In this document: positions 1 to 30,100 of the stretch, in pieces
How positions within the stretch are numbered: the first letter of the stretch is position 1
Layout of the letters: each line of letters opens with the position of its first letter
Origin: Odiellus spinosus
Lineage: Eukaryota; Arthropoda; Arachnida; Opiliones; Phalangiidae
Length of the DNA stretch: 64,000 nt
Reading direction: 5' to 3'
Assembly (NCBI GenBank): GCA_963920705.1
Contig: OY987227.1
Span: 21,105,434-21,169,433, forward strand
Made by a program: the position numbers and the translations under genes
The notes under the pieces: generated by a model
Databases searched by the model: none
Seen by the model: the letters and a program-made list of their open reading frames with translations, nothing else
What the model was told of the DNA's origin: nothing

Positions 1-299
1 TTAATAACCCACGATCCTCATTATTCCCCGCGTGTTTGAGTGATGTTCCGATCTCTTAACGTTTCGTTGGAATTTTATAGCTTCTATTTTTGTTTCGGTT
101 AAAGGGTATTCAATGGATGGTAATAAAGAAGCAGGTATTCAATATGATTATGTAGGGAACATATAGAGAAAGAGTTAATTAAATGATTGTCCACAAAATA
201 TTCAACCTCGAAGATCTAGATACATTTTCGATAATCCTACATATGACGTCACAATCAAAAATTAATAACAAGCTTAGCGCTTTTAAATTAAGCAATTAA
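1..299. other. unannotated AT-rich sequence
   Basis: No open frame, RNA gene or repeat that I can support. The sequence grades into the AT-rich minisatellite that follows. Confidence 0.5.
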
Positions 300-4139: not shown

Positions 4140-4146
4140 ATATTAT

Positions 4147-4563: not shown

Positions 4564-4570
4564 ATATTAT

Positions 4571-5919
<1,349 letters not shown>

Positions 5920-8046: not shown

Positions 8047-8834
8047 TAAATTTCAAAATATAATTAAAAATATTTTTTAAATTTCAAAATATAATTAAAA
8101 ATATTTTTTAAATTTCAAAATATAATTAAAAATATTTTTTAAATTTCAAAATATAATTAAAAATATTTTTTAAATTTCAAAATATAATTAAAAATATTTT
8201 TTAAATTTCAAAATATAATTAAAAATATTTTTTAAATTTCAAAATATAATTAAAAATATTTTTTAAATTTCAAAATATAATTAAAAATATTTTTTAAATT
8301 TCAAAATATAATTAAAAATATTTTTTAAATTTCAAAATATAATTAAAAATATTTTTTAAATTTCAAAATATAATTAAAAATATTTTTTAAATTTCAAAAT
8401 ATAATTAAAAATATTTTTTAAATTTCAAAATATAATTAAAAATATTTTTTAAATTTCAAAATATAATTAAAAATATTTTTTAAATTTCAAAATATAATTA
8501 AAAATATTTTTTAAATTTCAAAATATAATTAAAAATATTTTTTAAATTTCAAAATATAATTAAAAATATTTTTTAAATTTCAAAATATAATTAAAAATAT
8601 TTTTTAAATTTCAAAATATAATTAAAAATATTTTTTAAATTTCAATATATAATTAAAAATATTTTTTAAATTTCAATATATAATTAAAAATATTTTTTAA
8701 ATTTCAATATATAATTAAAAATATTTTTTAAATTTCAATATATAATTAAAAATATTTTTTAAATTTCAATATATAATTAAAAATATTTTTTAAATTTCAA
8801 TATATAATTAAAAATATTTTTTAAATTTCAAAAT
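8047..8834. repeat. 31-bp AT-rich minisatellite, 25 copies
   Basis: A 31-bp unit made of AAATTTCAAAATATAATT followed by AAAAATATTTTTT repeats 25 times without an indel: TTCAA starts recur every 31 bp from 8052 to 8796. The first 19 copies read TTCAAAATATAATT. The last six (from 8641) read TTCAATATATAATT, so one point variant has spread through a block at one edge. It lies about 600 bp upstream of the TM9SF1-like exon, probably in its intron. Confidence 0.95.
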
Positions 8835-9408
8835 CTCGAAGTAATTTTTTAAACCTCATATCTCGTTGAAGATAATCTTTCAAACCTCAAAATATCTTAT
8901 AAATATATAACCTTTTGTGAAAAAATTGAAAATATTCGACCCATTGAATGTCGAGTTTCAAAAAAATATTTACAGTATGAACGAGTCCCTTTATATAGTT
9001 GAATGTGAGGGATTTAGAAAAAGAAAAAGATAGGCCTATTGTTTAGACTTAGGCGTCTAGCTCGTATCTAATTTCTTGCGCTGCTTAGCGCTCGGGGTGC
9101 GCTGCGTGCAGGGTCAGCCGCGAAGGATGATTGATCCTTCTAAACGTCATTCTATTAATGTCATCCAACTTTTTTTCTTTTTTTTTTATATATACGTGGC
9201 ACCGTACTTTCTCCACTCTTCCTCCCTGTTCTTTTAACCCATGATACCTCTCCATCGCTATTTCGATATTGTCTCACCAACTTTACTGTTTTTTTTTGTC
9301 TCTTCCATCTCATCCCTTCCCTCCTTAACTTAACCCTATATCCAATACTCCACTCCATCTCCCCCTTCTCTCTTATCCAATGTATATCCGATCACGGTCG
9401 TCACTTAG
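8835..9408 (+). other. probable end of the last intron of the TM9SF1-like gene
   Basis: The sequence immediately before 9409 ends in TCACTTAG, with pyrimidine-rich tracts at 9270-9375 (CTCCCCCTTCTCTCTTATCC), as expected of a 3-prime splice site. A small palindromic word GAAGGATGATTGATCCTTC lies near 9122. No further exon of this gene was recognised upstream. Confidence 0.5.
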
Positions 9409-9610
9409 CTCGACGTCGCTGTTCGTCTTTTTCTACGCTCTCTTCTTCTATTACCGTCGATCTAATATGGAGGGTATGCTGCAAGCGGCCCAGTTCTTCG
9501 GCTACACCATTCTCACCTGCTACGTTTTCTTTTTGACGTTGGGTACCGTCTCTTTCTTCGCCTCCCTGCGATTCGTGCGTTACATTTATTGCAATATCAA
9601 AATGGATTAA
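9409..9610 (+). CDS. TM9SF1: TM9SF1-like nonaspanin, last coding exon (partial gene)
   Basis: This exon encodes the C-terminal 66 residues of a transmembrane-9 superfamily (nonaspanin) protein, multispanning proteins of the Golgi and endosomes. It contains a hydrophobic helix ([13 protein letters not shown]), the polar loop RRSNMEG, the family word FFGY, a second helix ([17 protein letters not shown]) and the end [12 protein letters not shown]. As I recall, human TM9SF1 ends almost the same way (YARRSNMSG, EFFGYSLLTGYVFFLMLG, IRYIYVNLKMD), which separates it from TM9SF2, 3 and 4. The final K-x-D fits the KXD/E signal reported to bind COPI and hold nonaspanins in the Golgi. The exon start is chosen at the AG of TCACTTAG: the remaining C is the third base of a codon (phase 2), and the frame upstream of it stops resembling the family. 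The stop is TAA at 9608-9610. Earlier exons were not found in the window. Confidence 0.82.
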
Positions 9611-9656
9611 ATAAATGAAATTACTTTCTGAGCGCGCGAGTGTTTGAGTTTTGTTT
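9610..9656 (+). terminator. poly(A) signal overlapping the stop codon, with GT-rich downstream element
   Basis: AATAAA at 9610-9615 shares its first A with the stop codon of the TM9SF1-like exon. A GT-rich stretch (GTGTTTGAGTTTTGTTT, about 9640-9656) lies 25-40 bp downstream, as in animal cleavage sites. This predicts a 3-prime UTR of only 15-30 nt. Alternative weaker signals farther on cannot be excluded. Confidence 0.5.
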
Positions 9657-11190
9657 CTTCTTAAAAGGATTGTGAAGAAGAAAATCATGAGATCATTTTT
9701 ATCAATTATACTTATTTATTCGAATTAAATGATTTAGAATTAAAATCAGTCCCTCCAACCAATCAAAAAAAAGAGATGCCCACACTTTTGTTTTATAGAA
9801 ATCCACGCGTCTCGTGCTGTGGCACATTTTTGTATTGTTTTCACACGCACAATCGGTGGTCCGTGTTCTGATTGGTCGCCGGAAAGATTGTTTTTAATTC
9901 AGTATCAAAATCAGAATGTTTTCCAATTTTTTTATACATTCACAGACACTTTAGCTTCACTCGAATATTTACCAAAAATGATGTATAACTGATAAAAAGT
10001 TTCATTTGATTTTCCTCTTCAATTAAGCACGCGGTCTCGACATGAAAATACGCAAAGCTGATGTCGGTATACCAACTAACGCAACGGGAATGTAATTATC
10101 GGGCGGATTAGATTATTATTGTGTAATGATAAAACTTTTTTTAATGAGCATACTTTCTGTATACGGTACTTAAGTAATTTTATTACGTTGATAGTCTTAT
10201 TGAGACTTATATCAAGAAACTACGAATTACATTCATAATTTTCATATTTCAATATTACTTTTTTTGAAAATAAATTAAATATTCACGACGAATCATGCAA
10301 ATTAAGCTTTAACTTCGATTCTTCACGAGTTAGAGGGGAAAGAAAACTACCTTATTTAATATTAAATTCACAATTATTTATCAAGGTTACAAGTTTACTG
10401 AGAACCAAAATATGGCAGTTAAATTCAATAACCCACCTTTAGTTTGTCAGTAAACCGTAAAATGGTCGCTCTGGAAATAAATTAGAACCTGAATTTCGAA
10501 CAAAAAACTATCAAATCGATTTGAGTCGTCTTGCATTTTATCTTAAATAAACAAAAATTTAATATTTTCAATATAAATGGAATGTAATTTGTAGTTTCTA
10601 AATATAAAGGAAAAAAAATATATTTGTGCTGTTATTAACGCGCATTTTATATTCATCTATACTTGTACCTATTATTATTTTTAGAGCTAAATTTGAACCA
10701 TTTGTAGCGTATTCGCGCCTGTAAAAGTGTTTCAACCGGCGCGCTCTTGTATCGCGGTTTTGGCGGAAATTTAGGAGACGTTTCTAGTCGCTGTGCGTGG
10801 AAATTAGCGCGATTTACATAACATTATTGTTGTGAAAATAATTGCGGCGATTGATTTAACTCCTAGTACAAATTGAAATTTATGAAAACCCCCCTAGTCT
10901 TTATAACTTCCTAAAACTGAACCGACCAATAAATAAATTGTTTCGAGAAAAACATTCCCCCGTCCTTAAAAAGGGTTAAATTACCGGAACCCGGTACGAA
11001 TAATTATTCACGAATGTTTTCCAAAAAAATGTGTTTAGAAGATAGAATAAAATATGAACAAAAGCGGTTTTAAAAAAACTACAGTTTATACCAAATTGCG
11101 TAATTATTTTGATTAACAATTATGTACTCATTTGCGGCTTATGTAGCGTTCAGACTAATCGAAAATATTACTTTTTAGTCTTTTCCCTTC
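9657..11190. other. unannotated stretch with a CpG-rich patch at 10.7-10.8 kb
   Basis: No supported gene. About 10715-10825 is CpG-rich for this window and contains TTTTGGCGGAAA, an E2F-like word, near 10758. It could be a promoter, but no coding start follows convincingly. Confidence 0.35.
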
Positions 11191-11197
11191 GTTATAT

Positions 11198-11489
11198 CAA
11201 GAAGGATCAGACAAGGAGAGGAAAAGTGGGGACGGCGCAGTTCTTACTGCGTCGGCCTAAACTCCTACTCCGGGAGAACGGGGGTAGAGATGTTTCGTGG
11301 TAAAATGTTGTCACGTGGGTAAAAACGGATCCTTTATCAGCTTCGTAGTAGCCAACGACGCTAGTGACCACGTGACAACAGTTTACCTCGAGAATTTCCT
11401 ATCCCCCTTTCCACCCGAGTGGGAGGTTGGCTCTTCTCTCGCTAACTCAACGCAGCCCTACTTTTCCTCTCCTTGTCTGATCCTTCTTG
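11198..11489. mobile_element. short terminal-inverted-repeat transposon, 292 bp
   Basis: Both ends read inward as CAAGAAGGATCAGACAAGGA followed by GAGGAAAAGT(G/A)GGG, about 34 bp of terminal inverted repeat with one mismatch. The element is flanked by the 7-bp direct repeat GTTATAT (11191-11197 and 11490-11496). Internal words GTGGTAAAATGTTGTCACGTG (near 11297) and CACGTGACAACAG (near 11369) form a further inverted pair. It encodes nothing; the open frames across it (11109-11303, 11297-11554, 11447-11680) share peptide only because of the inverted repeat. The terminal sequence differs from the 4147-4563 element, so it is a separate family. Confidence 0.8.
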
Positions 11490-11496
11490 GTTATAT

Positions 11497-13833
11497 TCGG
11501 GTTCGTGCGCCGTTCAGACGCACCAACAAAACTGGAAGCCTGAAGGAAACGTAGCTTTGATTGATTTTTCAGAAATTCCTGGGTACTTTTGACGATTCGT
11601 AAGCTCGCAGATGTACGGTACATTTTTATTAATCGAAAAATTAAAGTTTGAAAATGATAAACACACGTCGCCCTAAACATTTTCTTATAAATGATATTAG
11701 AATGATACAGTCAAGGTATAAAAATTAACCAAAATAGTCACTTTGTTTTATATTATTATTTAATAATTTTAAATAATGTTTCAAAAACACATTTTTGTTA
11801 ATATTTTTTTTTTTTTTTTTTTTTTTTCCTTTCGGTTGATTTTACCCATCACTGTATTTTACATATACATAAAAATTAATCAAATTACTAAACATTTTTT
11901 TATTCAATTTCTAATTACAGAACGCGTATTACGCGTTTGTACGGTTTAATAAAATGTAATTCAAAAATAACTTCGAGGGATCACCATCCAACCTAGTCCT
12001 GATAATCTGCAGTCACAGTGAGTACCTTGCAAATTTATCTTTTACTTTTTTGTGTTTTGGGTAAACATTTTTTTGACTTTTTTCTGACCATGATAAAGTC
12101 ACGGTATACCCAGTGTTATTTTATCATCGGCTTCTAACGCTGTCACAGACAGAAACTCGCCTTTTCTTTGTTAAATGACAAGTCTCACTCGAGAATTCAC
12201 GTTTATGGCAACGAATTTGTAGAGGTCAATAACTAGGGGTTAAATATGAAACCACATTCTCCAATATTGAACAGAAATTATATATAATATTAAATTAATT
12301 TACGAGACTGCTACTGCATTGTTAAAAAAGGCCTTTACGTAGCAGATCGAGGTGAAATAAACTTGGATAAAGGAAGGGTTGACGTAAAATCCTGGATTGG
12401 GGTGTTACCGTGTTAAACACAGCCCATAAGGGGGAGAAATATTTTTATCCACTTTGGTTTACGGAAGAATTTTAAAATAACATATTTGAAATGCTAACAA
12501 TCTTGGGAAATTAGTAACTTCACAAGAAAATCATCCTTCAATTTTATACTGCGTGTGACGATAAAGTCAGTTCGATTTCTCAGTCCATGGTTTCACCCTA
12601 TGAATTCCGAAGAGTAAATCAGACTCGAAATCGCGACGGCCGGGCGAGACACGCTCCTTCGTTTCGCGAGAGAGAGGGGAGAGTTGGGTCGATATATTTT
12701 CTGCCCTGTAAACGTCTCGAGCGTTCAGCACAATATTAGCACCGCCTACTTGGTTCCAATCTCAATCGCTATAGAGAGGGCAATTTCGAATTCCGTATCT
12801 CGACCTTTTAAGAGTTTTTGGATTTTCCCCACTCTCCTCGGGCGAAAGCTCTGACGATAAAACTTTGAGAACCACATACCAATTATAATATACCTTGTTG
12901 TAAACTTAAAGCATGATGTACTTGTGGTAACTTTCGCATTTAAAGAAGTTCCAATAAAGTCACGTCGATGTGTAAAAAATAATCTAAGACTTGGCCTTAA
13001 AGAAGGAAGCTATATAGGGGTTTGTGAAAAAACTCGAGCATGGAAAAAGACTGGCTAGTTGTTATAGATTGTTGGGAAAGATCGTCGGACTTTGGAAGCC
13101 AATTTCTCAGGATTACGATGAAACGTTCCTTTTGTACGATATTTTTTTTTCAACTCGAGACTTTACTCCGTATAAAATTGGAGGCCTTTGGCCTTTGGTT
13201 TTATAATGTCTCGCCATTAAACCATACGTTTTAGGGTTTACGTTGGTACCTTTTCTTGTTGAAATTTGAGTCCCGGTAGAAGATGAAAACCTGGAAACCG
13301 TTTTTCTCGCGAAATCTTCCATACACGCGATAGGAATCCGCGGCTATATGGAAAGAAAGTGAAAATTCGTGTTAAAAGAAGCTTTCTTTTCTTCATTTCT
13401 TTGGACGCGCGCGTTTTATTTCCTTCCCCAACCTTGGCAAGAGCTTTAGACGGGACTGAGAACAATAAACCCCTCTTGTAATTGCTTCTCTCTGAAGCCT
13501 ATAGCTTCTCATATACACCGTATATAAGAAAGTTCAGGATAGATACTCTATATCATTTCTTTTTCGAGAATATCAGAAATAAGAAACGGCTCTATGTGCT
13601 TCGTCACTTCTTATTTTATCATCTTTCATTGTATACCTGGTACGTGTAACGTACATTCTCGCAAACGTACTCGACTTTTAAGGCTAATTCAAGGACCGAA
13701 ACCCTCCCACCTCCCAGAAGAAAAAAAAAAAAAAGGCGAAACACTGAACTTCATTCCTTATTTAAAACTTTCAGAGATAATTGTTGGTTTTTCTCTGAAA
13801 CTTGCAAATATTTAATGTTTTCTGCTATTTACT
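11497..13833. other. unannotated stretch with a poly(T) tract
   Basis: Contains a run of about 24 T at 11804-11827, which could be a retroposon tail on the minus strand although no body was recognised. It also has a CpG-rich patch at about 12625-12730. The word CGAGACTGCTACTGC near 12304 recurs near 58658, a possible dispersed repeat. Open frames at 13024-13465 overlap one another on both strands and look like chance. Confidence 0.4.
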
Positions 13834-14274
13834 TTAAAGGGAGGATGCAACCTAACAACAAGTGATTTTTTATCTATTCCTTATTGTTTAAATAGGCCTA
13901 ATCCACTATTTAAAAAAATTACAAACAAATATTAAACTAGAAATAAATTTAAAACTTACCCTGAAAATAGGCTTAGTGGGATTCATGGAGCTCCTGATTT
14001 CCTCGCGTGTAAGGTCTAGCGACCTATCGCACGCGACGTAAGTCTCGTGGAGATCTCACGTGAACGACGGGCCTTTGCTCATTGGTCGCTAGACCTTACA
14101 CGGACGCGATTCAGGATCTCCATGAATCCCGCTAAGCCTATTTTCAGGGTAAGTTTTAAATTTATTTCTACTTTAATATTTGTATTGTAAACTTTTTATC
14201 GGTGGATTAGGCCTATTTAAACGATAAGGAATCGATAAAAAATCACTTGTAATTAGGTTGCATTCTCCCTTTAG
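13834..14274. mobile_element. TTAA foldback MITE, longest copy (441 bp)
   Basis: It begins TTAAAGGGAGGATGCAACC and ends GGTTGCATTCTCCCTTTA, with the last A of the terminal TTAA changed to G. Nested inverted segments are well preserved: AAATAGGCTTAGTGGGATTC near 13972 pairs with GAATCCCGCTAAGCCTATTT near 14123, and GTAAGGTCTAGCGACC near 14010 pairs with GGTCGCTAGACCTTAC near 14085. The centre differs from the other copies, so the family varies in its loop. No coding capacity. Confidence 0.8.
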
Positions 14275-14436
14275 GGGAACGTGAAAATCAAATGATTTCA
14301 TTGGATAATTTTACTTTAATACTCGAATAGTAAAACTAAAAATTTAAACCATGGATATTCTAAGAAAATAGTGACTGTATCATTTTGATTTATCTTTTTT
14401 AAAAAAAAAAAAACTTTTATCCATTACCGCACAAAG

Positions 14437-14712
14437 AGGCAACCATGTTGGAGATTGAAGTATTCCGAATTTAATATCGTAAACGATATAGCGAGCGATT
14501 GCGCGAATCAAAGTAGCCGCGCGGTTAAAAAAATTCAATTAGGTTATAAAATTTACACAGAAATGATAAAGGCATGTAGCGCGGAGAATTTAGGCCCGGG
14601 AGTTCCAATCGATATCGATTCCCCTTTCTTTTTAATAAAAAATACTGGGAAGACTATAATAAACCTGACCCGAGACGAGTATCAAAGCGGAGAAGAACCC
14701 TTCTTCGACTAA
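14437..14712 (+). CDS. possible terminal exon, unknown protein
   Basis: An open frame of 91 residues ends in TAA and follows a possible acceptor (GCACAAAG, 14429-14436) that would give phase 0. The peptide has balanced, non-repetitive composition (for example NDIASDCANQSSRAVKKIQL and FLIKNTGKTIINLTRDEYQ) and several G/C-rich codons, unlike most chance frames in this AT-rich window. It contains no in-frame ATG that would make a convincing start, so if real it is a last exon. I recognise no family. A chance open frame remains quite possible. Confidence 0.28.
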   Translation, partial: RQPCWRLKYSEFNIVNDIASDCANQSSRAVKKIQLGYKIYTEMIKACSAENLGPGVPIDIDSPFFLIKNTGKTIINLTRDEYQSGEEPFFD

Positions 14713-14901
14713 GCTCTCGGTCTCGTCCTCAAATGAATCGAGAATATATAGATAGCACTAAGCTTGCAGCATCCATTACCGTTATTTGTTTTCAATCTGG
14801 GCAATCTCTTTAATTCGCTCTTTTCTCCTCTCGTTTCGCCCCTCCGCTCGTCAAGGGAAAGTGAATTAAAATAAGTCCAAACTGTACCAGAATGCAGCCT
14901 C

Positions 14902-15190
14902 GCTTTAGACCGAAACAGTAGTCCACTTTTAGACCCAAACAATAGTTCACTTTTAGACCCAAACAATAGTCCACTTTTAGACCCAAACAATAGTCCACTT
15001 TTAGACCCAAACAATAGTTCACTTTTAGACCCAAACAATAGTTCACTTTTAGACCGAAACAATAGTCCACTTTTAGACCGAAACAATAGTCCACTTTTAG
15101 ACCCAAACAATAGTTCACTTTTAGACCCAAACAATAGTCCAGTTTTAGACCCAAACAATAGTTCACTTTTAGACCCAAACAATAGTCATT
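14902..15190. repeat. 24-bp minisatellite, about 12 copies
   Basis: Units of 24 bp contain GTCCACTTTTAGACCCAAAC plus AATA. Two sites alternate between copies: GTCCAC/GTTCAC and GACCCAAAC/GACCGAAAC. Because 24 is a multiple of 3 it creates open minus-strand frames with 8-residue repeats (14709-15182, 14810-15178), which are not credible genes. Degenerate relatives (TTGGACCGAAACTAAT and similar) continue to about 15365. Confidence 0.93.
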
Positions 15191-15365
15191 TTTTGACTTA
15201 AACTAATTTAGTCCTCTTTACACTTGAAACATGTTTATATTTGGACCGAAACTAATCTAATCCTCTTCAGACTTGAAACTTTGTTCATTTTTGGACCGAA
15301 ACTAATTTTGGACCCAAAATAATAGTCCATTTTCGACCCAAAATAATAAATGTTTACACCGAAAC

Positions 15366-16846
15366 TAGCACGCCCCGAGACTATTGCACATTTTACCAAA
15401 ACTAGTCCATAAAATGCCATAACTTATATAATTCATTGAAATTAATTTACAATAAACCGAAACTATGGTGCGCGACATAAATATATTTTAAACTTAATTA
15501 ATCTAATTCGTTTTTATGATAAATAGACTCGCGTACTTAAAACCAATTGAATTGTTAAACTCATTTCATTATCCCTTTAAAAGCATCTCAACCCAATGAA
15601 GGCACCATCGATAGTTTTTATCCCAAATCTAGATCTCAGAATCCCACGTAGTTTCTACCCATCATTTCTGGGTTTATTTTAACTCTATTAAGTTGTTTGA
15701 TTTCGGAATTTGGGTCTTTTTCCCTCCCTTCGATTCTACGCTCAATACATTTCTACCATCTACAATCTTCTCTTTAATCAGAATGTGAAGTGGAAAGGAT
15801 AATCAGGTAGTGTCGAGTATTTTACGGGATAAGAGGGAACCCTATACGCTCGCTTCGGGCAACCTAATCAGAATTCCTCGTAGTTTTCACACACGCTCAA
15901 AACCAGACTATATCTCTTATGGTTAATGCATCTCCCAATAGCTTCGTATATACTGATTCGAACCTTTCTTGGTTCTGAAAACGCGAGCTGTATCTGATAG
16001 CGCGCTACAGATTAATTGTTCGACGCTTTTGAGACAACACGTATGAAGCTAGAAATATTAGTTACACGTGTTACTCGTATTTGCTTAGCGCGTTTCTTTC
16101 TCCTTCAAACATTAATTTCGTTGGTTTAAATTTATGGAAATGATTGTGTATATAGTCTAGGCGAGTGAATCAATATAGCGAATTGACTCTGGTTGATTCC
16201 CCGGAAGTTAGCTAATGAAGATCGAACCCCATACCTCTTATTTTTATTCAAACTGTGGTTTTAAAAGTACAATTAGGTTATTTTTTTTTTCTATTAACCT
16301 TAAATATAGGCCTAATTGGATCACTTAAAGGGGGAAATCTGGGTTCGATGATTTTAATTTTTAGGGTAGAAAATTACACAAAGAAAACTGATAAAACAAT
16401 TTTTTGTTTTAAATGAACACATGGTACTTGTTGTCCAAAAGTGATTTCAAAATAAAAGTTGTTGTTTTGATTAGGTAATCACAGAACCGCGTTAGACACG
16501 CGAGCTTAACGAGTTATTAAAAGGACACTCAATTCGAAGATATTTAATTATAAATAAACAATAATTATAATATTTCAAACAAATATAAAATACTAAATTA
16601 AGAAGAATTAGGTTTTTGTAAAAAAAGGTTTCCTGGTTCTTTTAAACCACTTAGAAACTCGCGGTAAAGAAAATAACTCTTCCTAAACCGTGCTAAGCCT
16701 AATGCGTAAAGCCCATTATTGCCTAAGTTCATAATTATACAAAAAAGAGGTTGCTTCGCACCCTTAAAAAAACTCTTTATCTAACTCGAATCAAACCCGT
16801 GAAGGGACAGAAATTATTTGTTAGAGAAAGAGCAAGAGAGTATCTT
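15366..16846. other. unannotated stretch with relic MITE ends
   Basis: No supported gene. CATTTCATTATCCCTTTAA (15565-15583) matches the inward-facing end of the 42277-42587 element and is probably a relic. TAGGCCTAATTGGATCACTT near 16311 followed by AAAGGGGGAAAT also resembles that family. Confidence 0.35.
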
Positions 16847-17129
16847 TAAAATTATAGTTAGTAGATTTAGTCTACTACTTCAAAGATTTTATTACTATTA
16901 TATATTTTCCAAAAAACGGATAAAGACGACCTAGGACTAATGATAATTATATATATACATTAAAGGAACTCCATCTTTAGCTAATTTTATTAGTGATACT
17001 GATAGAATTTAAAATTAACATCATTGGGAGAGGAAGGTTAACTAGGTCGTCTTTATCCGTTTTTTGGAAAATATATAATAGTAATAAAATCTTTGAAGTA
17101 GTAGACTAAATCTACTAACTATAATTTTA
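16847..17129. repeat. perfect 88-bp inverted repeat with 107-bp spacer, abutting the 16-bp satellite
   Basis: The arm 16847-16934 and its exact inverse complement 17042-17129 show no mismatch over 88 bp. Each arm runs from TAAAATTATAGTTAGTAGAT to AAAGACGACCTAG. The spacer is AT-rich and non-coding. The second arm stops one base before the first monomer of the satellite at 17131. It may be a young MITE with long terminal repeats, or a palindrome formed by rearrangement. No target duplication can be read, because its right flank is the satellite. Confidence 0.95.
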
Positions 17130-17130
17130 T

Positions 17131-20100
17131 CGTTGGTTTCAAGTGTCGTTGGTTTCTAGTGTCGTTGGTTACAAGTGTCGTTGGTTTCAAGTGTCGTTGG
17201 TTTCAAGTGTCGTTTGTTTCAAGTGTCGTTGGTTTCAAGTGTCGTTGGTTTCAAGTGTCGTTGGTTTCAAGTGTCGTAGGTTTCAAGTGTCGTTTGTTTC
17301 AACTGTCGTTTGTTTCAACTGTCGTTTGTTTCAAGTGTCGTTGGTTTCTAGTGTCGTTGGTTTCAAGTGTCGTTGGTTTCAAGTGTCGTTGGTTTCAAGT
17401 GTCGTTGGTTTCAACTGTCGTTGGTTTCAAGTGTCGTTGGTTTCAAGTGTCGTTGGTTTCAAGTGTCGTTGGTTTCAAGTGTCGTTGGTTTCAAGTGTCG
17501 TTTGTCTCAAGTGTCGTTGGTCTCAAGTGTCGTTGGTTTCAAGTGTCGTTGGTTTCAAGTGTCGTTTGTTTCTAGTGTCGTTTGTTTCAAGTGTCGTTGG
17601 TTTCTAGTGTCGTTGGTTTCAAGTGTCGTTGGTTTCAAGTGTCGTTTGTTTCAAGTGTCGTTTGTTTCAAGTGTCGTTTGTTTCAAGTGTCGTTGGTTTC
17701 TAGTGTCGTTGGTTTCAAGTGTCGTTGGTTTCAAGTGTCGTTGGTTTCAAGTGTCGTTGGTTTCTAGTGTCGTTGGTTTCAAGTGTCGTTGGTTTCAAGT
17801 GTCGTTGGTTTCTAGTGTCGTTGGTTTCAAGTGTCGTTGGTTTCAAGTGTCGTTGGTTTCAAGTGTCGTTGGTTTCAAGTGTCGTTTGTTTCAAGTGTCG
17901 TTTGTTTCAAGTGTCGTTTGTTTCAAGTGTCGTTTGTTTCAAGTGTCGTTGGTTTCAAGTGTCGTTGGTTTCAAGTGTCGTTGGTTTCAAGTGTCGTTGG
18001 TTTCAAGTGTCGTTTGTTTCAAGTGTCGTTGGTTTCAAGTGTCGTTGGTTTCAAGTGTCGTTGGTTTCAAGTGTCGTTGGTTTCAAGTGTCGTTGGTTTC
18101 AAGTGTCGTTGGTTTCAAGTGTCGTTGGTTTCAAGTGTCGTTGGTTTCAAGTGTCGTTGGTTTCAAGTGTCGTTGGTTTCAAGTGTCGTTGGTTTCAAGT
18201 GTCGTTTGTTTCAAGTGTCGTTTGTTTCAAGTGTCGTTTGTTTCAAGTGTCGTTTGTTTCAAGTGTCGTTTGTTTCAAGTGTCGTTTGTTTCAAGTGTCG
18301 TTGGTTTCAAGTGTCGTTGGTTTCAAGTGTCGTTGGTTTCAAGTGTCGTTGGTTTCAAGTGTCGTTTGTTTAAAGTGTCGTTTGTTTCTAGTGTCGTTGG
18401 TTTCAAGTGTCGTTGGTTTCAAGTGTCGTTGGTTTCAAGTGTCGTTGGTTTCTAGTGTCGTTGGTTTCTAGTGTCGTTGGTTTCAAGTGTCGTTTGTTTC
18501 AAGTGTCGTTGGTTTCAAGTGTCGTTTGTTTCAAGTGTCGTTTGTTTCAAGTGTCGTTGGTTTCAAGTGTCGTTGGTTTCAAGTGTCGTTGGTTTCAAGT
18601 GTCGTTGGTTTCAAGTGTCGTTGGTTTCAAGTGTCGTTGGTTTCAAGTGTCGTTTGTTTCAAGTGTCGTTGGTTTCAAGTGTCGTTGGTTTCAAGTGTCG
18701 TTGGTTTCAAGTGTCGTTGGTTTCAAGTGTCGTTGGTTTCAAGTGTCGTTGGTTTCAAGTGTCGTTGGTTTCAAGTGTCGTTGGTTTCAAGTGTCGTTGG
18801 TTTCAAGTGTCGTTGGTTTCAAGTGTCGTTTGTTTCAAGTGTCGTTTGTTTCAAGTGTCGTTTGTTTCAAGTGTCGTTTGTTTCAAGTGTCGTTGGTTTC
18901 AAGTGTCGTTGGTTTCAAGTGTCGTTGGTTTCAAGTGTCGTTGGTTTCAAGTGTCGTTTGTTTCAAGTGTCGTTGGTTTCAAGTGTCGTTGGTTTCAAGT
19001 GTCGTTGGTTTCAAGTGTCGTTGGTTTCAAGTGTCGTTGGTTTCAAGTGTCGTTGGTTTCAAGTGTCGTTGGTTTCAAGTGTCGTTGGTTTCAAGTGTCG
19101 TTGGTTTCAAGTGTCGTTTGTTTCAAGTGTCGTTTGTTTCAAGTGTCGTTTGTTTCAAGTGTCGTTTGTTTCAAGTGTCGTTTGTTTCAAGTGTCGTTTG
19201 TTTCAAGTGTCGTTGGTTTCAAGTGTCGTTGGTTTCAAGTGTCGTTGGTTTCAAGTGTCGTTGGTTTCAAGTGTCGTTTGTTTAAAGTGTCGTTTGTTTC
19301 TAGTGTCGTTGGTTTCAAGTGTCGTTGGTTTCAAGTGTCGTTGGTTTCAAGTGTCGTTGGTTTCTAGTGTCGTTGGTTTCTAGTGTCGTTGGTTTCAAGT
19401 GTCGTTTGTTTCAAGTGTCGTTGGTTTCAAGTGTCGTTTGTTTCAAGTGTCGTTTGTTTCAAGTGTCGTTGGTTTCAAGTGTCGTTGGTTTCAAGTGTCG
19501 TTGGTTTCAAGTGTCGTTGGTTTCAAGTGTCGTTGGTTTCAAGTGTCGTTGGTTTCAAGTGTCGTTTGTTTCAAGTGTCGTTGGTTTCAAGTGTCGTTGG
19601 TTTCAAGTGTCGTTGGTTTCAAGTGTCGTTGGTTTCAAGTGTCGTTGGTTTCAAGTGTCGTTGGTTTCAAGTGTCGTTGGTTTCAAGTGTCGTTGGTTTC
19701 AAGTGTCGTTGGTTTCAAGTGTCGTTTGTTTCAAGTGTCGTTGGTTTCAAGTGTCGTTGGTTTCAAGTGTCGTTGGTTTCAAGTGTCGTTGGTTTCAAGT
19801 GTCGTTGGTTTCACGTGTCGTTGGTTTCAAGTGTCGTTGGTTTCAAGTGTCGTTTGTTTCAAGTGTCGTTGGTTTCAAGTGTCGTTGGTTTCAAGTGTCG
19901 TTTGTTTCAAGTGTCGTTTGTTTCAAGTGTCGTTTGTTTCAAGTGTCGTTTGTTTCAAGTGTCGTTGGTTTCAAGTGTCGTTGGTTTCAAGTGTCGTTGG
20001 TTTCAAGTGTCGTTGGTTTCAAGTGTCGTTGGTTTCAAGTGTCGTTGGTTTCAAGTGTCGTTGGTTTCAAGTGTCGTTTGTTTCAAGTGTCGTTGGTTTC

Positions 20101-23100
20101 AAGTGTCGTTGGTTTCAAGTGTCGTTGGTTTCAAGTGTCGTTGGTTTCAAGTGTCGTTGGTTTCACGTGTCGTTGGTTTCACGTGTCGTTGGTTTCAAGT
20201 GTCGTTGGTTTCAAGTGTCGTTTGTTTCAAGTGTCGTTTGTTTCAAGTGTCGTTTGTTTCAAGTGTCGTTTGTTTCAAGTGTCGTTTGTTTCAAGTGTCG
20301 TTTGTTTCAAGTGTCGTTTGTTTCAAGTGTCGTTGGTTTCTAGTGTCGTTGGTTTCAAGTGTCGTTGGTTTCAAGTGTCGTTGGTTTCAAGTGTCGTTGG
20401 TTTCAAGTGTCGTTTGTTTCAAGTGTCGTTGGTTTCAAGTGTCGTAGGTTTCAAGTGTCGTAGGTTTCAAGTGTCGTTTGTTTCAAGTGTCGTTGGTTTC
20501 AACTGTCGTTGGTTTCAAGTGTCGTTTGTTTCAAGTGTCGTTTGTCTCAAGTGTCGTTTGTCTCAAGTGTCGTTTGTCTCAAGTGTCGTTTGTCTCAAGT
20601 GTCGTTGGTTTCAAGTGTCGTTGGTTTCAAGTGTCGTAGGTTTCAAGTGTCGTTTGTTTCAACTGTCGTTTGTTTCAACTGTCGTTGGTTTCAAGTGTCG
20701 TTTGTTTCAAGTGTCGTTTGTCTCAAGTGTCGTTGGTTTCAAGTGTCGTTTGTTTCAACTGTCGTTGGTTTCAAGTGTCGTTTGTTTCAAGTGTCGTTTG
20801 TTTCAAGTGTCGTTGGTTTCAAGTGTCGTTTGTTTCAAGTGTCGTTGGTTTCTAGTGTCGTTGGTTTCAAGTGTCGTTGGTTTCAAGTGTCGTTGGTTTC
20901 AAGTGTCGTTGGTTTCAACTGTCGTTGGTTTCAAGTGTCGTTGGTTTCAAGTGTCGTTGGTTTCAAGTGTCGTTGGTTTCAAGTGTCGTTGGTTTCAAGT
21001 GTCGTTTGTCTCAAGTGTCGTTGGTCTCAAGTGTCGTTGGTTTCAAGTGTCGTTGGTTTCAAGTGTCGTTGGTTTCTAGTGTCGTTGGTTTCAAATGTCG
21101 TTGGTTTCAAGTGTCGTTGGTTTCAAGTGTCGTTGGTTTCTAGTGTCGTTGGTTTCAAGTGTCGTTGGTTTCAAGTGTCGTTGGTTTCAAGTGTCGTTTG
21201 TTTCAAGTGTCGTTTGTTTCAAGTGTCGTTTGTTTCAAGTGTCGTTTGTTTCAAGTGTCGTTGGTTTCAAGTGTCGTTGGTTTCAAGTGTCGTTGGTTTC
21301 AAGTGTCGTTGGTTTCAAGTGTCGTTGGTTTCAAGTGTCGTTTGTTTCAAGTGTCGTTGGTTTCAAGTGTCGTTGGTTTCAAGTGTCGTTGGTTTCAAGT
21401 GTCGTTGGTTTCAAGTGTCGTTGGTTTCAAGTGTCGTTTGTTTCAAGTGTCGTTTGTTTCAAGTGTCGTTTGTTTCAAGTGTCGTTTGTTTCAAGTGTCG
21501 TTTGTTTCAAGTGTCGTTTGTTTCAAGTGTCGTTGGTTTCAAGTGTCGTTGGTTTCAAGTGTCGTTGGTTTCAAGTGTCGTTGGTTTCAAGTGTCGTTTG
21601 TTTAAAGTGTCGTTTGTTTCTAGTGTCGTTGGTTTCAAGTGTCGTTGGTTTCAAGTGTCGTTGGTTTCAAGTGTCGTTGGTTTCTAGTGTCGTTGGTTTC
21701 TAGTGTCGTTGGTTTCAAGTGTCGTTTGTTTCAAGTGTCGTTGGTTTCAAGTGTCGTTTGTTTCAAGTGTCGTTTGTTTCAAGTGTCGTTGGTTTCAAGT
21801 GTCGTTGGTTTCAAGTGTCGTTGGTTTCAAGTGTCGTTGGTTTCAAGTGTCGTTGGTTTCAAGTGTCGTTGGTTTCAAGTGTCGTTTGTTTCAAGTGTCG
21901 TTGGTTTCAAGTGTCGTTGGTTTCAAGTGTCGTTGGTTTCAAGTGTCGTTGGTTTCAAGTGTCGTTGGTTTCAAGTGTCGTTGGTTTCAAGTGTCGTTGG
22001 TTTCAAGTGTCGTTGGTTTCAAGTGTCGTTGGTTTCAAGTGTCGTTTGTTTCAAGTGTCGTTTGTTTCAAGTGTCGTTTGTTTCAAGTGTCGTTTGTTTC
22101 AAGTGTCGTTGGTTTCAAGTGTCGTTGGTTTCAAGTGTCGTTGGTTTCAAGTGTCGTTTGTTTCAAGTGTCGTTGGTTTCAAGTGTCGTTGGTTTCAAGT
22201 GTCGTTGGTTTCAAGTGTCGTTGGTTTCAAGTGTCGTTGGTTTCAAGTGTCGTTGGTTTCAAGTGTCGTTGGTTTCAAGTGTCGTTGGTTTCAAGTGTCG
22301 TTGGTTTCAAGTGTCGTTGGTTTCAAGTGTCGTTTGTTTCAAGTGTCGTTTGTTTCAAGTGTCGTTTGTTTCAAGTGTCGTTTGTTTCAAGTGTCGTTTG
22401 TTTCAAGTGTCGTTTGTTTCAAGTGTCGTTGGTTTCAAGTGTCGTTGGTTTCAAGTGTCGTTGGTTTCAAGTGTCGTTGGTTTCAAGTGTCGTTTGTTTA
22501 AAGTGTCGTTTGTTTCTAGTGTCGTTGGTTTCAAGTGTCGTTGGTTTCAAGTGTCGTTGGTTTCAAGTGTCGTTGGTTTCTAGTGTCGTTGGTTTCTAGT
22601 GTCGTTGGTTTCAAGTGTCGTTTGTTTCAAGTGTCGTTGGTTTCAAGTGTCGTTTGTTTCAAGTGTCGTTTGTTTCAAGTGTCGTTTGTTTCAAGTGTCG
22701 TTGGTTTCAAGTGTCGTTGGTTTCAAGTGTCGTTGGTTTCAAGTGTCGTTGGTTTCAAGTGTCGTTGGTTTCAAGTGTCGTTGGTTTCAAGTGTCGTTGG
22801 TTTCAAGTGTCGTTGGTTTCAAGTGTCGTTGGTTTCAAGTGTCGTTGGTTTCAAGTGTCGTTTGTTTCAAGTGTCGTTGGTTTCAAGTGTCGTTGGTTTC
22901 AAGTGTCGTTGGTTTCAAGTGTCGTTGGTTTCAAGTGTCGTTGGTTTCACGTGTCGTTGGTTTCAAGTGTCGTTGGTTTCAAGTGTCGTTTGTTTCAAGT
23001 GTCGTTGGTTTCAAGTGTCGTTGGTTTCAAGTGTCGTTTGTTTCAAGTGTCGTTTGTTTCAAGTGTCGTTTGTTTCAAGTGTCGTTTGTTTCAAGTGTCG

Positions 23101-26100
23101 TTGGTTTCAAGTGTCGTTGGTTTCAAGTGTCGTTGGTTTCAAGTGTCGTTGGTTTCAAGTGTCGTTGGTTTCAAGTGTCGTTGGTTTCAAGTGTCGTTGG
23201 TTTCAAGTGTCGTTTGTTTCAAGTGTCGTTGGTTTCAAGTGTCGTTGGTTTCAAGTGTCGTTGGTTTCAAGTGTCGTTGGTTTCAAGTGTCGTTGGTTTC
23301 ACGTGTCGTTGGTTTCACGTGTCGTTGGTTTCAAGTGTCGTTGGTTTCAAGTGTCGTTTGTTTCAAGTGTCGTTTGTTTCAAGTGTCGTTTGTTTCAAGT
23401 GTCGTTTGTTTCAAGTGTCGTTTGTTTCAAGTGTCGTTTGTTTCAAGTGTCGTTTGTTTCAAGTGTCGTTGGTTTCTAGTGTCGTTGGTTTCAAGTGTCG
23501 TTGGTTTCAAGTGTCGTTGGTTTCAAGTGTCGTTGGTTTCAAGTGTCGTTTGTTTCAAGTGTCGTTGGTTTCAAGTGTCGTAGGTTTCAAGTGTCGTAGG
23601 TTTCAAGTGTCGTTTGTTTCAAGTGTCGTTGGTTTCAACTGTCGTTGGTTTCAAGTGTCGTTTGTTTCAAGTGTCGTTTGTCTCAAGTGTCGTTTGTCTC
23701 AAGTGTCGTTTGTCTCAAGTGTCGTTTGTCTCAAGTGTCGTTGGTTTCAAGTGTCGTTGGTTTCAAGTGTCGTAGGTTTCAAGTGTCGTTTGTTTCAACT
23801 GTCGTTTGTTTCAACTGTCGTTGGTTTCAAGTGTCGTTTGTTTCAAGTGTCGTTTGTCTCAAGTGTCGTTGGTTTCAAGTGTCGTTTGTTTCAACTGTCG
23901 TTGGTTTCAAGTGTCGTTTGTTTCAAGTGTCGTTTGTTTCAAGTGTCGTTGGTTTCAAGTGTCGTTTGTTTCAAGTGTCGTTGGTTTCTAGTGTCGTTGG
24001 TTTCAAGTGTCGTTGGTTTCAAGTGTCGTTGGTTTCAAGTGTCGTTGGTTTCAACTGTCGTTGGTTTCAAGTGTCGTTGGTTTCAAGTGTCGTTGGTTTC
24101 AAGTGTCGTTGGTTTCAAGTGTCGTTGGTTTCAAGTGTCGTTTGTCTCAAGTGTCGTTGGTCTCAAGTGTCGTTGGTTTCAAGTGTCGTTGGTTTCAAGT
24201 GTCGTTGGTTTCTAGTGTCGTTGGTTTCAAATGTCGTTGGTTTCAAGTGTCGTTGGTTTCAAGTGTCGTTGGTTTCTAGTGTCGTTGGTTTCAAGTGTCG
24301 TTGGTTTCAAGTGTCGTTGGTTTCAAGTGTCGTTTGTTTCAAGTGTCGTTTGTTTCAAGTGTCGTTTGTTTCAAGTGTCGTTTGTTTCAAGTGTCGTTGG
24401 TTTCAAGTGTCGTTGGTTTCAAGTGTCGTTGGTTTCAAGTGTCGTTGGTTTCAAGTGTCGTTGGTTTCAAGTGTCGTTTGTTTCAAGTGTCGTTGGTTTC
24501 AAGTGTCGTTGGTTTCAAGTGTCGTTGGTTTCAAGTGTCGTTGGTTTCAAGTGTCGTTGGTTTCAAGTGTCGTTGGTTTCAAGTGTCGTTGGTTTCAAGT
24601 GTCGTTTGTTTCAAGTGTCGTTTGTTTCAAGTGTCGTTTGTTTCAAGTGTCGTTGGTTTCAAGTGTCGTTGGTTTCAAGTGTCGTTGGTTTCAAGTGTCG
24701 TTGGTTTCAAGTGTCGTTGGTTTCAAGTGTCGTTGGTTTCAAGTGTCGTTGGTTTCAAGTGTCGTTGGTTTCAAGTGTCGTTTGTTTCAAGTGTCGTTGG
24801 TTTCAAGTGTCGTTGGTTTCAAGTGTCGTTGGTTTCACGTGTCGTTGGTTTCAAGTGTCGTTGGTTTCAAGTGTCGTTGGTTTCAAGTGTCGTTGGTTTC
24901 AAGTGTCGTTGGTTTCAAGTGTCGTTTGTTTCAAGTGTCGTTTGTTTCAAGTGTCGTTTGTTTCAAGTGTCGTTTGTTTCAAGTGTCGTTTGTTTCAAGT
25001 GTCGTTTGTTTCAAGTGTCGTTTGTTTCTAGTGTCGTTGGTTTCTAGTGTCGTTGGTTTCAAGTGTCGTTGGTTTCAAGTGTCGTTGGTTTCAAGTGTCG
25101 TTTGTTTCAAGTGTCGTTGGTTTCAAGTGTCGTAGGTTTCAAGTGTCGTAGGTTTCAAGTGTCGTTTGTTTCAACTGTCGTTTGTTTCAACTGTCGTTGG
25201 TTTCAAGTGTCGTTTGTTTCAAGTGTCGTTTGTCTCAAGTGTCGTTTGTCTCAAGTGTCGTTTGTCTCAAGTGTCGTTGGTTTCAAGTGTCGTTGGTTTC
25301 AAGTGTCGTTGGTTTCTAGTGTCGTTGGTTTCAAGTGTCGTTGGTTTCAAGTGTCGTTGGTTTCAAGTGTCGTTGGTTTCAAGTGTCGTTTGTTTCAAGT
25401 GTCGTTTGTTTCAAGTGTCGTTGGTTTCAAGTGTCGTTGGTTTCAAGTGTCGTTTGTTTCAAGTGTCGTTGGTTTCAAGTGTCGTTTGTTTCAAGTGTCG
25501 TTGGTTTCAAGTGTCGTTGGTTTCAAGTGTCGTTGGTTTCAAGTGTCGTTGGTTTCAAGTGTCGTTGGTTTCAAGTGTCGTTTGTCTCAAGTGTCGTTGG
25601 TCTCAAGTGTCGTTGGTTTCAAGTGTCGTTGGTTTCAAGTGTCGTTGGTTTCTAGTGTCGTTGGTTTCAAATGTCGTTGGTTTCAAGTGTCGTTGGTTTC
25701 AAGTGTCGTTGGTTTCTAGTGTCGTTGGTTTCAAGTGTCGTTGGTTTCAAGTGTCGTTGGTTTCAAGTGTCGTTTGTTTCAAGTGTCGTTTGTTTCAAGT
25801 GTCGTTTGTTTCAAGTGTCGTTTGTTTCAAGTGTCGTTGGTTTCAAGTGTCGTTGGTTTCAAGTGTCGTTGGTTTCAAGTGTCGTTGGTTTCAAGTGTCG
25901 TTGGTTTCAAGTGTCGTTTGTTTCAAGTGTCGTTGGTTTCAAGTGTCGTTGGTTTCAAGTGTCGTTGGTTTCAAGTGTCGTTGGTTTCAAGTGTCGTTGG
26001 TTTCAAGTGTCGTTGGTTTCAAGTGTCGTTGGTTTCAAGTGTCGTTTGTTTCAAGTGTCGTTTGTTTCAAGTGTCGTTTGTTTCAAGTGTCGTTGGTTTC

Positions 26101-27002
26101 AAGTGTCGTTGGTTTCAAGTGTCGTTGGTTTCAAGTGTCGTTGGTTTCAAGTGTCGTTGGTTTCAAGTGTCGTTGGTTTCAAGTGTCGTTGGTTTCAAGT
26201 GTCGTTGGTTTCAAGTGTCGTTGGTTTCAAGTGTCGTTGGTTTCAAGTGTCGTTTGTTTCAAGTGTCGTTGGTTTCAAGTGTCGTTGGTTTCAAGTGTCG
26301 TTGGTTTCACGTGTCGTTGGTTTCAAGTGTCGTTGGTTTCAAGTGTCGTTGGTTTCAAGTGTCGTTGGTTTCAAGTGTCGTTGGTTTCAAGTGTCGTTTG
26401 TTTCAAGTGTCGTTTGTTTCAAGTGTCGTTTGTTTCAAGTGTCGTTTGTTTCAAGTGTCGTTTGTTTCAAGTGTCGTTTGTTTCTAGTGTCGTTGGTTTC
26501 TAGTGTCGTTGGTTTCAAGTGTCGTTGGTTTCAAGTGTCGTTGGTTTCAAGTGTCGTTTGTTTCAAGTGTCGTTGGTTTCAAGTGTCGTAGGTTTCAAGT
26601 GTCGTAGGTTTCAAGTGTCGTTTGTTTCAACTGTCGTTTGTTTCAACTGTCGTTGGTTTCAAGTGTCGTTTGTTTCAAGTGTCGTTTGTCTCAAGTGTCG
26701 TTTGTCTCAAGTGTCGTTTGTCTCAAGTGTCGTTGGTTTCAAGTGTCGTTGGTTTCAAGTGTCGTTGGTTTCTAGTGTCGTTGGTTTCAAGTGTCGTTGG
26801 TTTCAAGTGTCGTTGGTTTCAAGTGTCGTTGGTTTCAAGTGTCGTTTGTTTCAAGTGTCGTTTGTTTCAAGTGTCGTTGGTTTCAAGTGTCGTTGGTTTC
26901 AAGTGTCGTTTGTTTCAAGTGTCGTTGGTTTCAAGTGTCGTTTGTTTCAAGTTTCGTTGGTTTCAAGTGTCGTTGGTTTCAAGTGTCGTTGGTTTCAAGT
27001 GT
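17131..27002 (+). repeat. 16-bp satellite, exactly 617 monomers, with higher-order structure
   Basis: The unit is CGTTGGTTTCAAGTGT. The array spans 9872 bp, which is 617 x 16, and the monomer phase is unchanged at every 240-bp checkpoint, so variation is by substitution and no net indel is seen. The commonest variant is G to T at position 5 (CGTTTGTTTC), often in runs of up to 7 monomers. Others are CGTAGG, TTCTAG, TTCACG, CAACTG, GTCTCA, TTTAAAG and CAAATG. Markers show higher-order blocks: TTTAAAG recurs at 18371, 19283, 21603 and 22499 (912, 2320 and 896 bp apart), and CAAATG at 21091, 24227 and 25667 (3136 and 1440 bp), all multiples of 16. The monomer has no stop in any + frame, so the many long frames here are artefacts. 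Confidence 0.98.
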
Positions 27003-27054
27003 ATATCCTATTTAACATTCTAAATCTTTATTTTTTATTATGCTTAAGTTAGAC

Positions 27055-27146
27055 GTGCTTTAGATACAGACTTCAATAATTGGCCAACTACTTAATAGCA
27101 ACATTATTACGTAGTAGTAATGACGAAGCTATTGGATCTAAAGCAC
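27055..27146. repeat. small imperfect hairpin just outside the satellite
   Basis: GTGCTTTAGAT (27055-27065) pairs with ATCTAAAGCAC (27136-27146), and the central part (ATTATTACGTAGTAGTAAT) is also largely self-complementary. It lies 50 bp past the end of the 16-bp array. It may be a MITE relic; function unknown. Confidence 0.5.
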
Positions 27147-30100
27147 ATCCTAGTCGCAAAACTCAAGTATTTTAAGAAATAGAGTAGAGATTGAGAACGT
27201 TAAACTATAAATTTCATGTGTAATCGAGCACTTGGCAGGATATGAAGTCCAACTCAAGTGACATTTAATCCCTAGAACTCTCATTGTGAAATGTTTTTAC
27301 AGTGACTTAATATATTAAATTGGCCACATTTCTAGGTAATGCGATTTACATTCAATCGCCTCGCTTTATTCGAGTACTCTACCCAAAAAGATCGTGAGAA
27401 ATAGGTCTCTTATCACCGAAATATAGGTGAGAAACGATTGCCTAAACAATCAAAGACGGTGCATCTTTGAGTACTGAATCTGCTAATCTCGTTTATATAG
27501 GCCGAGAAGAGATGTATTATTAAAGTTAAAAAATCAAATGATAAGAAAATCATGCCAACTTTTTAATTACGGTGAATTAGGGTGAATATAATGGGATACT
27601 CATGATATGACATAATAGTCAAAATTAGACGGCTGAAGAGGGCTACCCTAGTAAAAGAACCCAATAAATGCAATTTTCCGTTAACGATAAAAAATGACAT
27701 TAAAAAAAGCTTATCAACTGTTTAATAAAATCAATTTTTGTTTATCAATTTAAAGCCAATTAATAAAGCTCGGCTAGTTATATGTTTTACCCTTTTCGTC
27801 ACCCATACAGCCATCTGTCTCTCTATTAACTCGAATTCTATGGATATTCATTATCATTCTACTGTTTAAGAAATAAAATTTTGTTTATCATTTTGAAGCA
27901 ATTAGTAAAGCTCGGCTAAGCTTAAGATCTCACCCTTTTGTAACCCATTCAGGCACCTTACTTTCTATTACTTCATATACTTAATCAACATTTCATTATT
28001 GAAATCTGTGTTTAACTAGAGATACTCTTGTACCCGAACGAAGTCTTATCAAATTTTTTCAAAAGTACCTTTGTCTGTATTAATTCGAATTCAGTGGACG
28101 GTGGGAAGAGGGAAACGACGACGACGACGACGACGATTTCAGTTATCAAGCGCCGCGGGTCCATTGGAAAAGACATTACGGTTTCTGATGAAATTCGAGT
28201 TTAGATAAAGGGATAAACACGAACGTGTTTATCCTAATTGGAAGGTATTGAGATCTTCGTATGGACGGGATGAACGTATTAACAAAATTCGGGAAGAAAC
28301 TAAAAATAATGCTAGACCCTTTTTCACTACATCTCCAGACAATGTAAGACCCTACACCACCTCCTGGTAGGGGGGGTAGTGTCTAAAATTCGTAATACGC
28401 AAAATAAGCTCCCTCACTCAGAAAACGAAGGTGATGGGACCTGGAAAAAGTGAAGGGGCAGACTTTTTTTATCCTTACATTAAAAAAAAAAGGTTGGTTT
28501 TAATCTATTTAAGGAAAGTCGCGGAGAATCTTTTTTTGTTTTCTACTTTTACGCGTTTGTTCCTGTTTGGCAACTTGCCTGAACGCCAAATGGTTAAAAA
28601 AAAAGTTTTAAAGTTTTCTTGTATACTTTTAAATTTTTTGTACACGTTTTTTTCTTTATTTTGTTTTACCTATTGCGGTTTAAGATGGGGAGGAGTGGTT
28701 GTGCTTGAATTTTGCAACCGTAATGGGGCCACCTTCTTGTTGCTTGAATCCATTATTTTAGCAAAAATTCAATACGTTACTTCCAATGGCAATTATAACT
28801 AGATATTTAAGTGCATGATGATTACACCATTTTTTCGAGGGTCAATGAATTATAATGCTTAGTTTTTCATACTATTAAAAACCTATACTATGAATTTTAC
28901 ACCTTTGGGTTGACGTGCATTTTTAAATAAACTGCAAAATTAAAATTATGCAAATTTAAAAATTTATTTTTATGACGTATGGAAAACCACCATTAAAGTC
29001 TAAAATTTAAAAGATGACACTAAGTAAAATAAAAAATTGCTCAAAAGATAGAGCAGGAGATATGTACCTTAAAATGACAAAACAAAGGTATTGCAAATCG
29101 GAAACCCAACTAAATTTTAGCCGCTTACACGCTAGAGACTTAAGAATCATTTTTAACCATTTTTGAAAGGTCAAACTACGAAATTTTAAGGTCATCTGTA
29201 TACGTCTTTTGTCAAGAAACGTGATTATTACGTTAAAACAATTGTACAAATATGATATTCGCGTCTCTGCAAGCCTAAATTAAACTATATTTAAAATTAA
29301 GATTTTAATTATTCGGTGTAATAACCCTTTAACGTAAAGAAATAGGATGTGATTATTCTTTCGAGGAAAAAAATGTTTTTCTTTTCGCTTGAAGTTCCGA
29401 GGATTTTAAGTTACTCGGGTTACAGAAACTATTTTTAATTCTGTTAAGATTAACATTATATATTAATCCACCCCAACTTTCTGTATTTCGCGAACTAAAA
29501 GTAGATAAACGTGTTGTTTTTTGGCTCGAGAAAGACATTTTCTCATCGCTGGCGCTGTTTTTGCGAAAGGTCAGTTTGGAAATTCGAAACTCCATTTCTA
29601 AATATTTCGCTGATGGAGTAAAAACAAGCAAAGAAGCTTAAAAGAAGAAGGGTAGGAAGAAAAAAAAAGTCCCAAAATTTCAAAAGTATATTTTTATTTT
29701 TTAAAACCCTTTTTAAAGGATTATTTTTGTGGGAGGAATGCGCGGATAAGTCGACTGCTTATATATTGTCTGTCGTATTCTATAGGGCTAAGTTTTACTT
29801 ACGACGACGGGGTGAGTCTACTACAGTTCAATAATGTTTTGCGAAAACATTTTTTTACTCAGCTGAGACTTAAAATTGTGTATTATAATCCTCAGTTTTT
29901 GTTATTTTGGAAAGTTTTTGAGTTTCAGCCTGGTACCAACCTTTCCCCTGAGCATGGTTATATTGAGACATAAACATTTTTACAGGCGTAATATAGAAAT
30001 ATAACATGGGTTATGGGCCTGAAATAAATATACATAATAGTTTACGCATAATATATTTTTCCTCAAATATTTTTGGGACATAAATCACGTTCATTGTTTA

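Follow-up and report, generated by a model that had tools for sequence, protein, structure and literature searches.

The general routes by which satellites come to lie in mobile elements have been reviewed (PMC12628747). In the oyster Crassostrea gigas, eleven Cg_HINE elements of the Helentron/HINE type carry central satellite-like repeats, the longest array counting 29.3 monomers, and a model cited in that study associates many repeats with low mobility (PMC7492417). Helitron2 types are described with hairpins and with terminal inverted repeats that are asymmetric (PMC5148889).

The locus described here lies in the harvestman Odiellus spinosus, where a perfect 88-bp inverted repeat stands at the edge of a 16-bp satellite. 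The repeat is very probably the clipped 5' palindrome of a Helitron-like element, non-autonomous, young and present in many copies, which carries the satellite and has spread it, a deletion having joined the arm to the array. Like the oyster Helentron/HINE elements, it is non-autonomous and of the rolling-circle type, with a 3' palindrome, central tandem repeats and no target duplication (PMC7492417). The oyster elements prefer oligo-T sites and have subterminal inverted repeats of 11-12 bp, whereas the present element inserts between A and T (A^T) and has, in intact copies, a 507-bp 5' palindrome. The oyster monomers are mostly 140-180 bp long in arrays of at most 29.3, against 617 units of 16 bp in the window (PMC7492417). 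Insertion within TT or oligo-T, as in Helentron/HINE elements, was not observed. The proto-Helentron of Phytophthora infestans shares the 5' TT, a 3' end of the CTRR type, the A^T insertion and the lack of a target duplication. However, it ends in CTAG instead of CTAA, and it encodes proteins, whereas no coding part is apparent in the window element (PMC4067079). Canonical Helitron1 also inserts between A and T without target duplication and ends in CTRR with a hairpin, but its 5' end is TC instead of TT, its hairpin lies about 11 bp from the 3' end instead of abutting it at 3 nt, and the very long perfect 5' palindrome sets the present element apart (PMC4067079, PMC5148889). As in the models of Xenopus Xstir and miDNA4, described as MITEs with tandem repeats, the array lies inside a small non-autonomous element whose terminal parts wear as arrays grow (PMC12628747). 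Those elements have inverted repeats at both ends, in contrast to the single palindromic end without target duplication seen here. A perfect palindrome of about 500 bp as a Helitron 5' end was not found in open-access titles and the openings of abstracts, which is a weak negative.

The window, i.e., the whole stretch of DNA analysed, is 64,000 nucleotides long (C3:21105434-21169433) and belongs to a genome of 443 Mb in 286 contigs. The first-pass annotation had reported a perfect 88-bp inverted repeat with a 107-bp spacer abutting a satellite. The structure is real, and its coordinates were re-derived: the arms at 16847-16934 and 17042-17129 are 88 nt long, 100% complementary and 107 nt apart. 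Arms and abutment were thus as reported, and only the end of the span, placed at 17131, lay two bases too far, as the arm ends at 17129. TRF delimited the array at 17130-27002 (period 16, 617.1 copies, 96% matches), so the satellite starts at the base immediately following the second arm. By chance, the longest exact inverted repeat measured 12-14 nt in 20 simulations (first-order, non-satellite sequence, gap up to 400), and the next longest ones in the window measure 39, 30 and 26 nt (gap up to 3,000). As had been stated, the remaining long local inverted repeats in the lists have diverged arms (25 of 119 pairs shown for 1-17129; whole window for spans under 4 kb). The perfection of the arms alone is weak evidence of extreme youth because an absence of differences over 88 bp still allows a divergence of up to ~3.3% (95%). 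Folded as single-stranded DNA, the region reaches a z-score of -20, which merely restates the inverted repeat. Rfam and tRNA scans of the window gave no matches, and a Pfam search of ten window ORFs gave a single hit, under its cut-off and not meaningful. The arm string had 0 matches in a genome contig collection and the satellite string 0 in a viral contig collection, both of which possibly leave out records near the window's own genome. A satellite-like short word at 16118 was judged a chance match by our own estimate. The features of the element are collected in Table 1.

Table 1 Features of the probable Helitron-like element in the window
Feature	Position	Strand	Basis or remark
Whole non-autonomous Helitron-like element, 11,503 bp	16735..28237	+	Compared copies with different flanks; empty site of L011
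Host bases flanking the element	A at 16734, T at 28238		
5' terminal palindrome, left arm, complete (200 bp)	16735..16934	+	Aligned to the arms of 18 copies and the C7 copy
5-bp block in left arm (arm positions 102-106)	16836..16840	+	In the window copy only, among 20 copies compared
Palindrome spacer, 107 bp	16935..17041	+	
Right arm of 5' palindrome, clipped	17042..17129	+	Inner 88 of 200 bp retained
Arm/satellite junction, read as a deletion joint	17129..17130	.	Joint of the C7 copy at the same base
16-bp satellite TCGTTGGTTTCAAGTG, 617 units	17130..27001	+	Internal block duplications
Module of ~457 bp 3' of the satellite	27002..27458	+	
Element 3' part	27456..28237	+	
3' end: 11-nt inverted repeat GGATAAACACG-AA-CGTGTTTATCC, then TAA (CTAA terminus)	28211..28237	+	

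Further repeats occur in the window. A hairpin element with ends AAAGGGAG is present three times, in diverged form, at 2921-3207, 5915-6183 and 13835-14273, and has matches in L015, L016 and L027. Another element, at 4140-4570, has terminal inverted repeats of 48 bp that are 94% complementary, and it is matched at 96% over 419 bp in L023. A 14-bp array extends over 50229-56620; its left flank (49904-50230) matches L021 and its right flank (56625-56843) L025 and L028. Judged by such matches, this array may also lie inside a mobile element.

Copies of the palindrome are dispersed through the genome. A 336-bp query (16800-17135) found 40 places at 97-100% identity (40 scored of 1,013 candidates), all of which included the 47 bp left of the first arm. 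The inverted match extended to the query start in 35 of these and to position 21 or 29 in three; only in the window and in a copy on contig C7 did it stop at query position 48. Since the inverted match reaches further out at 38 of the 40 places, the window copy counts as a short one, with longer arms elsewhere. Eighteen copies (L011-L028) and the C7 copy were compared. In all of them the repeat begins at A/TTATACAAAAAAGAGG, with one T fewer in L022 and one base changed in each of L021 and L026. The palindrome of L011 measures 507 bp with arms of 200 bp. Full 200-bp arms were found in 17 of the 18 copies, and the right arm of the remaining one (L027) is shortened yet longer than 88 bp. Beyond the point where the right arm of the window stops, intact copies run on with AAGATATGAAAT. 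The palindrome is followed by TTTCTGTCC in 17 of the 18 copies, and a long shared body comes next in most. In L024, the body lies on the palindrome's other side and the spacer is reversed relative to it, as if flipped between the arms; L025 is a rearranged copy. The outer end of the palindrome is the 5' end of the element.

The identity of the arms had been ascribed either to youth or to gene conversion. The arms are identical over 200 bp in 7 of the 17 full-arm copies. Relative to the L011 arm, 16 substitutions in these copies affect one arm only and a single one affects both (L021). The length of a poly-A run changed in both arms in L025 and L028 and in one arm in L019, L024 and L026. Youth is thus the part that held, and gene conversion between the arms is unsupported as the main cause, given 16 one-arm substitutions against one in both. 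Arm identity is thus for the most part an inheritance from a recent source, and occasional transfer between arms may have contributed. Five neighbouring left-arm bases of the window copy are changed as one block (Table 1). The block falls where the window has no right arm and was excluded from the arm comparison.

The sequence to the right of the satellite (26983-27800) is a dispersed repeat too. Many of its matches (40 scored of 1,521 candidates) are found downstream of a palindrome copy that has the same orientation. Eight satellite-free copies (L011, L014, L015, L019, L020, L023, L026, L027) align to 16735-17129 and then from 27001 onward, with a body of 805-887 bp between the two equivalents. 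Seven of these eight measure 2,625-2,733 bp end to end. At the 3' end, an 11-nt inverted repeat sits 3 nt from the terminus, with TAA directly after it. The last 21 nt occur at 521 exact places genome-wide, compared to 0 for the reversed control. Among about 100 places listed, 3' ends are spaced 24 bp apart in some cases and 2,358-2,367 bp in others, which suggests tandem hairpins and head-to-tail elements, respectively. In L014, L033 and L034, the hairpin with CTAA stands in two or three tandem copies with a period of ~24 bp. No palindrome arm is present at this end, and the palindrome is therefore confined to the 5' end.

The insertion site was examined by string searches and by the empty site of one copy. 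An A precedes the 5' end in 19 of 19 cases and a T follows the outermost 3' end in 16 of 16, where the 5' string demands TT and the 3' string includes CTAA, so ends without CTAA would escape. L022 was unmatched at the 5' end, and L020 and L021 at the 3' end. Outside A/TTATAC on the left and CTAA/T on the right, the flanks differ. L011 is inserted in a tandem repeat with a period of 383 bp, and its joined flanks match ten neighbouring monomers over all 200 positions at 97-99%, eight of them gap-free. This empty site places the insertion of this one copy between A and T without target duplication, with an ambiguity of one base due to bases common to element and target. The joined flanks of eight other copies gave no empty site in the sequence searched. 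The first-pass annotation had proposed a genome search for the arm, with target duplications as the sign of a MITE: dispersed copies were indeed found, and the L011 site shows no duplication. The arm nevertheless belongs, as had been supposed, to the end of a mobile element that is young and dispersed, and it now bounds the array.

The terminus at the 5' end is TT, not the canonical TC, in the window copy and the compared copies, and the CTAA terminus of 16 copies or loci fits CTRR. The A^T insertion, the lack of duplication, and CTAA with a hairpin together form a Helitron-type signature (PMC4067079). The Helitron Rep domain (PF14214) has at least 150 matches in the genome (150 scored of 184 candidates) and 0 in 14 control genomes. 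The two Rep loci read (L042 and L043, 3.5 kb each) both lack the element's ends and so gave no autonomous copy bearing them. We infer that the element moves by a rolling-circle mechanism and that a Rep/helicase Helitron would mobilise it in trans.

The satellite was found within the stretch read in 6 of the 18 copies (L012, L013, L016, L017, L018, L022) and in none of the other 12. In five of these six carriers it sets in after ...CATCTGTGAG, with TTTGTTTCAAGTG and then full units; in L012 it starts inside the module. With 1 mismatch allowed, the right edge of the satellite, followed by TATATCC, was located at 20 places on seven contigs, and these places group into nine locations. A palindrome match and a 3' part accompany the edge at each location, and nine carriers were therefore counted. 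Six of the nine have at least two edges between satellite and module (the C6 carrier has six), and in these carriers the two components therefore alternate. By match coordinates, nested insertions included, the nine span ~6 to 26 kb. Measured end to end, the C7 copy is 15,012 bp long; its array (L009, L010) is broken after 14 units by ~6.9 kb of other sequence. Carriers lie on contigs C2, C3, C6, C7, C11, C13 and C14. Seven of the nine are at relative contig positions of 0.46-0.57, with the window copy at 0.72 and the C2 copy at 0.29, and the mid-contig carriers are perhaps pericentromeric.

In a tree of the 3' parts, the ten satellite rows (nine carriers) stand on one side of a branch with 99/98 support and the nine satellite-free rows on the other. 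One of the satellite rows, L035, is an inner module of the L033 carrier, with its end set by length and a long branch. A 65-bp segment is missing from the last modules in 10 of 10 satellite rows and present in 9 of 9 satellite-free rows, and the first modules of L013, L016, L017, L018 and L022 retain it. A rare pair of unit variants occurs at 14 places, and each of these falls within one of four carriers among the nine. As far as tested, these sequence comparisons point to a single origin of the satellite in the element family, and at the nine locations the satellite is internal to the element.

In the window array, 116 consecutive identical units are repeated at an offset of 3,136 bp, the longest duplicated block, and near its right end further blocks are repeated at 1,440-1,456 bp. 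All of these are recent block duplications. Between the window and C7 arrays, which differ in variant composition, the most informative common run has 8 units. Most informative common runs of 8 units were again found among the arrays of seven carriers (five partly read); longer common runs, of up to 23 units, are made up almost entirely of the most frequent unit. Because the informative runs in common are short, the arrays appear to change much faster than the rest of the element.

The distance between arm and satellite in other carriers explains how the junction is read. Four of the six readable carriers have their first full unit 1,404-1,413 bp past the position at which the window arm stops; in L012 and L016 the distance is 1,123 bp and 3,715 bp, respectively. 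At the window junction this intervening stretch is gone and the arm is fused to the satellite. No microhomology was seen there. The fused 27-mer (up to 2 mismatches) occurs at exactly two places genome-wide, in the window and in the C7 copy. The first-pass annotation had proposed a check of whether other arrays of the unit also start at this arm: apart from the window, the junction was found in the C7 copy only, and ~1.4 kb lies in between in four of six carriers. It had also been suggested that the repeat seeded or bounded the amplification. The arm does bound the array now, but seeding does not agree with a first unit 1,123-3,715 bp past the arm elsewhere. Most likely, a deletion rather than seeding placed the arm beside the satellite, and we infer that the joint is this deletion and that it preceded the second insertion.

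The window and C7 copies have different left and right flanks, and both element ends are present in each. Their left 395 bp differ at six positions, five of which are the block of the window copy; for the 3' parts, an alignment of 1,239 columns gives 98.5% identity. In the tree the two form no supported pair, so the common descent of the junction is argued from its base-exact identity alone. This leaves some room for the explanation that, in an element otherwise as described, the C7 junction was copied by ectopic gene conversion or template switch instead of transposition. Satellite arrays recombine readily, and the tree result would agree with such copying. However, 5' and 3' flanks that both differ while both element ends are present, together with the base-exact joint, make it unlikely.

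A MITE (TIR transposon) at the array edge that has TIRs of 88 bp, duplicates a TA target and bounded or seeded the satellite is very improbable. The arms are near-perfect, TA stands at both arm ends, and the window holds further MITE-like inverted repeats. Nevertheless, arms of 200 bp elsewhere and a repeat that runs far past the right arm do not fit 88-bp termini, and the proposed MITE end is contradicted by a 3' end consisting of a hairpin and CTAA without the arm. The single empty site of L011, which lacks a duplication, refutes a MITE for the element family. A fold-back (template-switch) break repair, which would have generated the inverted arm and set off amplification of the satellite, was also proposed and is very improbable: it would account for perfect arms, a 107-bp spacer and exact abutment, but 17 of the 18 copies have 200-bp arms and 12 have no satellite in the stretch read, so that the palindrome occurs without junction or satellite. 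An assembly artefact at the junction of a long low-complexity array with a high-copy repeat is likewise very improbable, as the identical joint was assembled on two contigs with different flanks and the element's own 3' part closes the array on the right.

Under the preferred reading of a clipped Helitron-like element, the satellite would have arisen or been captured once in one element lineage. It would have expanded in that lineage, and the element would then have taken it to at least nine locations. In one carrier, a deletion of ~1.4 kb or more would have fused the right arm to the array. The deleted derivative would then have moved, giving two insertions with different flanks and a junction identical to the base.

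Satellites inside rolling-circle elements are already known, but here the carriers reach ~6 to 26 kb, compared to 2.6-2.7 kb without satellite. The abutment of a palindrome and a satellite can arise by plain deletion inside a transposon. The clipped carrier is present at two sites. With nine carriers on one branch, it can be tested whether long arrays move whole or regrow at each move. A wider interpretation is tentative, and we hold it with rather less than even confidence. A rolling-circle family may carry kilobase-scale arrays to new sites, and a clipped derivative may still be mobile, in which case ~395 bp of the 5' end and the 3' part would suffice. Array turnover may be far above point mutation (~1-1.5% between the window and C7 copies), and the palindrome may represent a new kind of Helitron 5' end.
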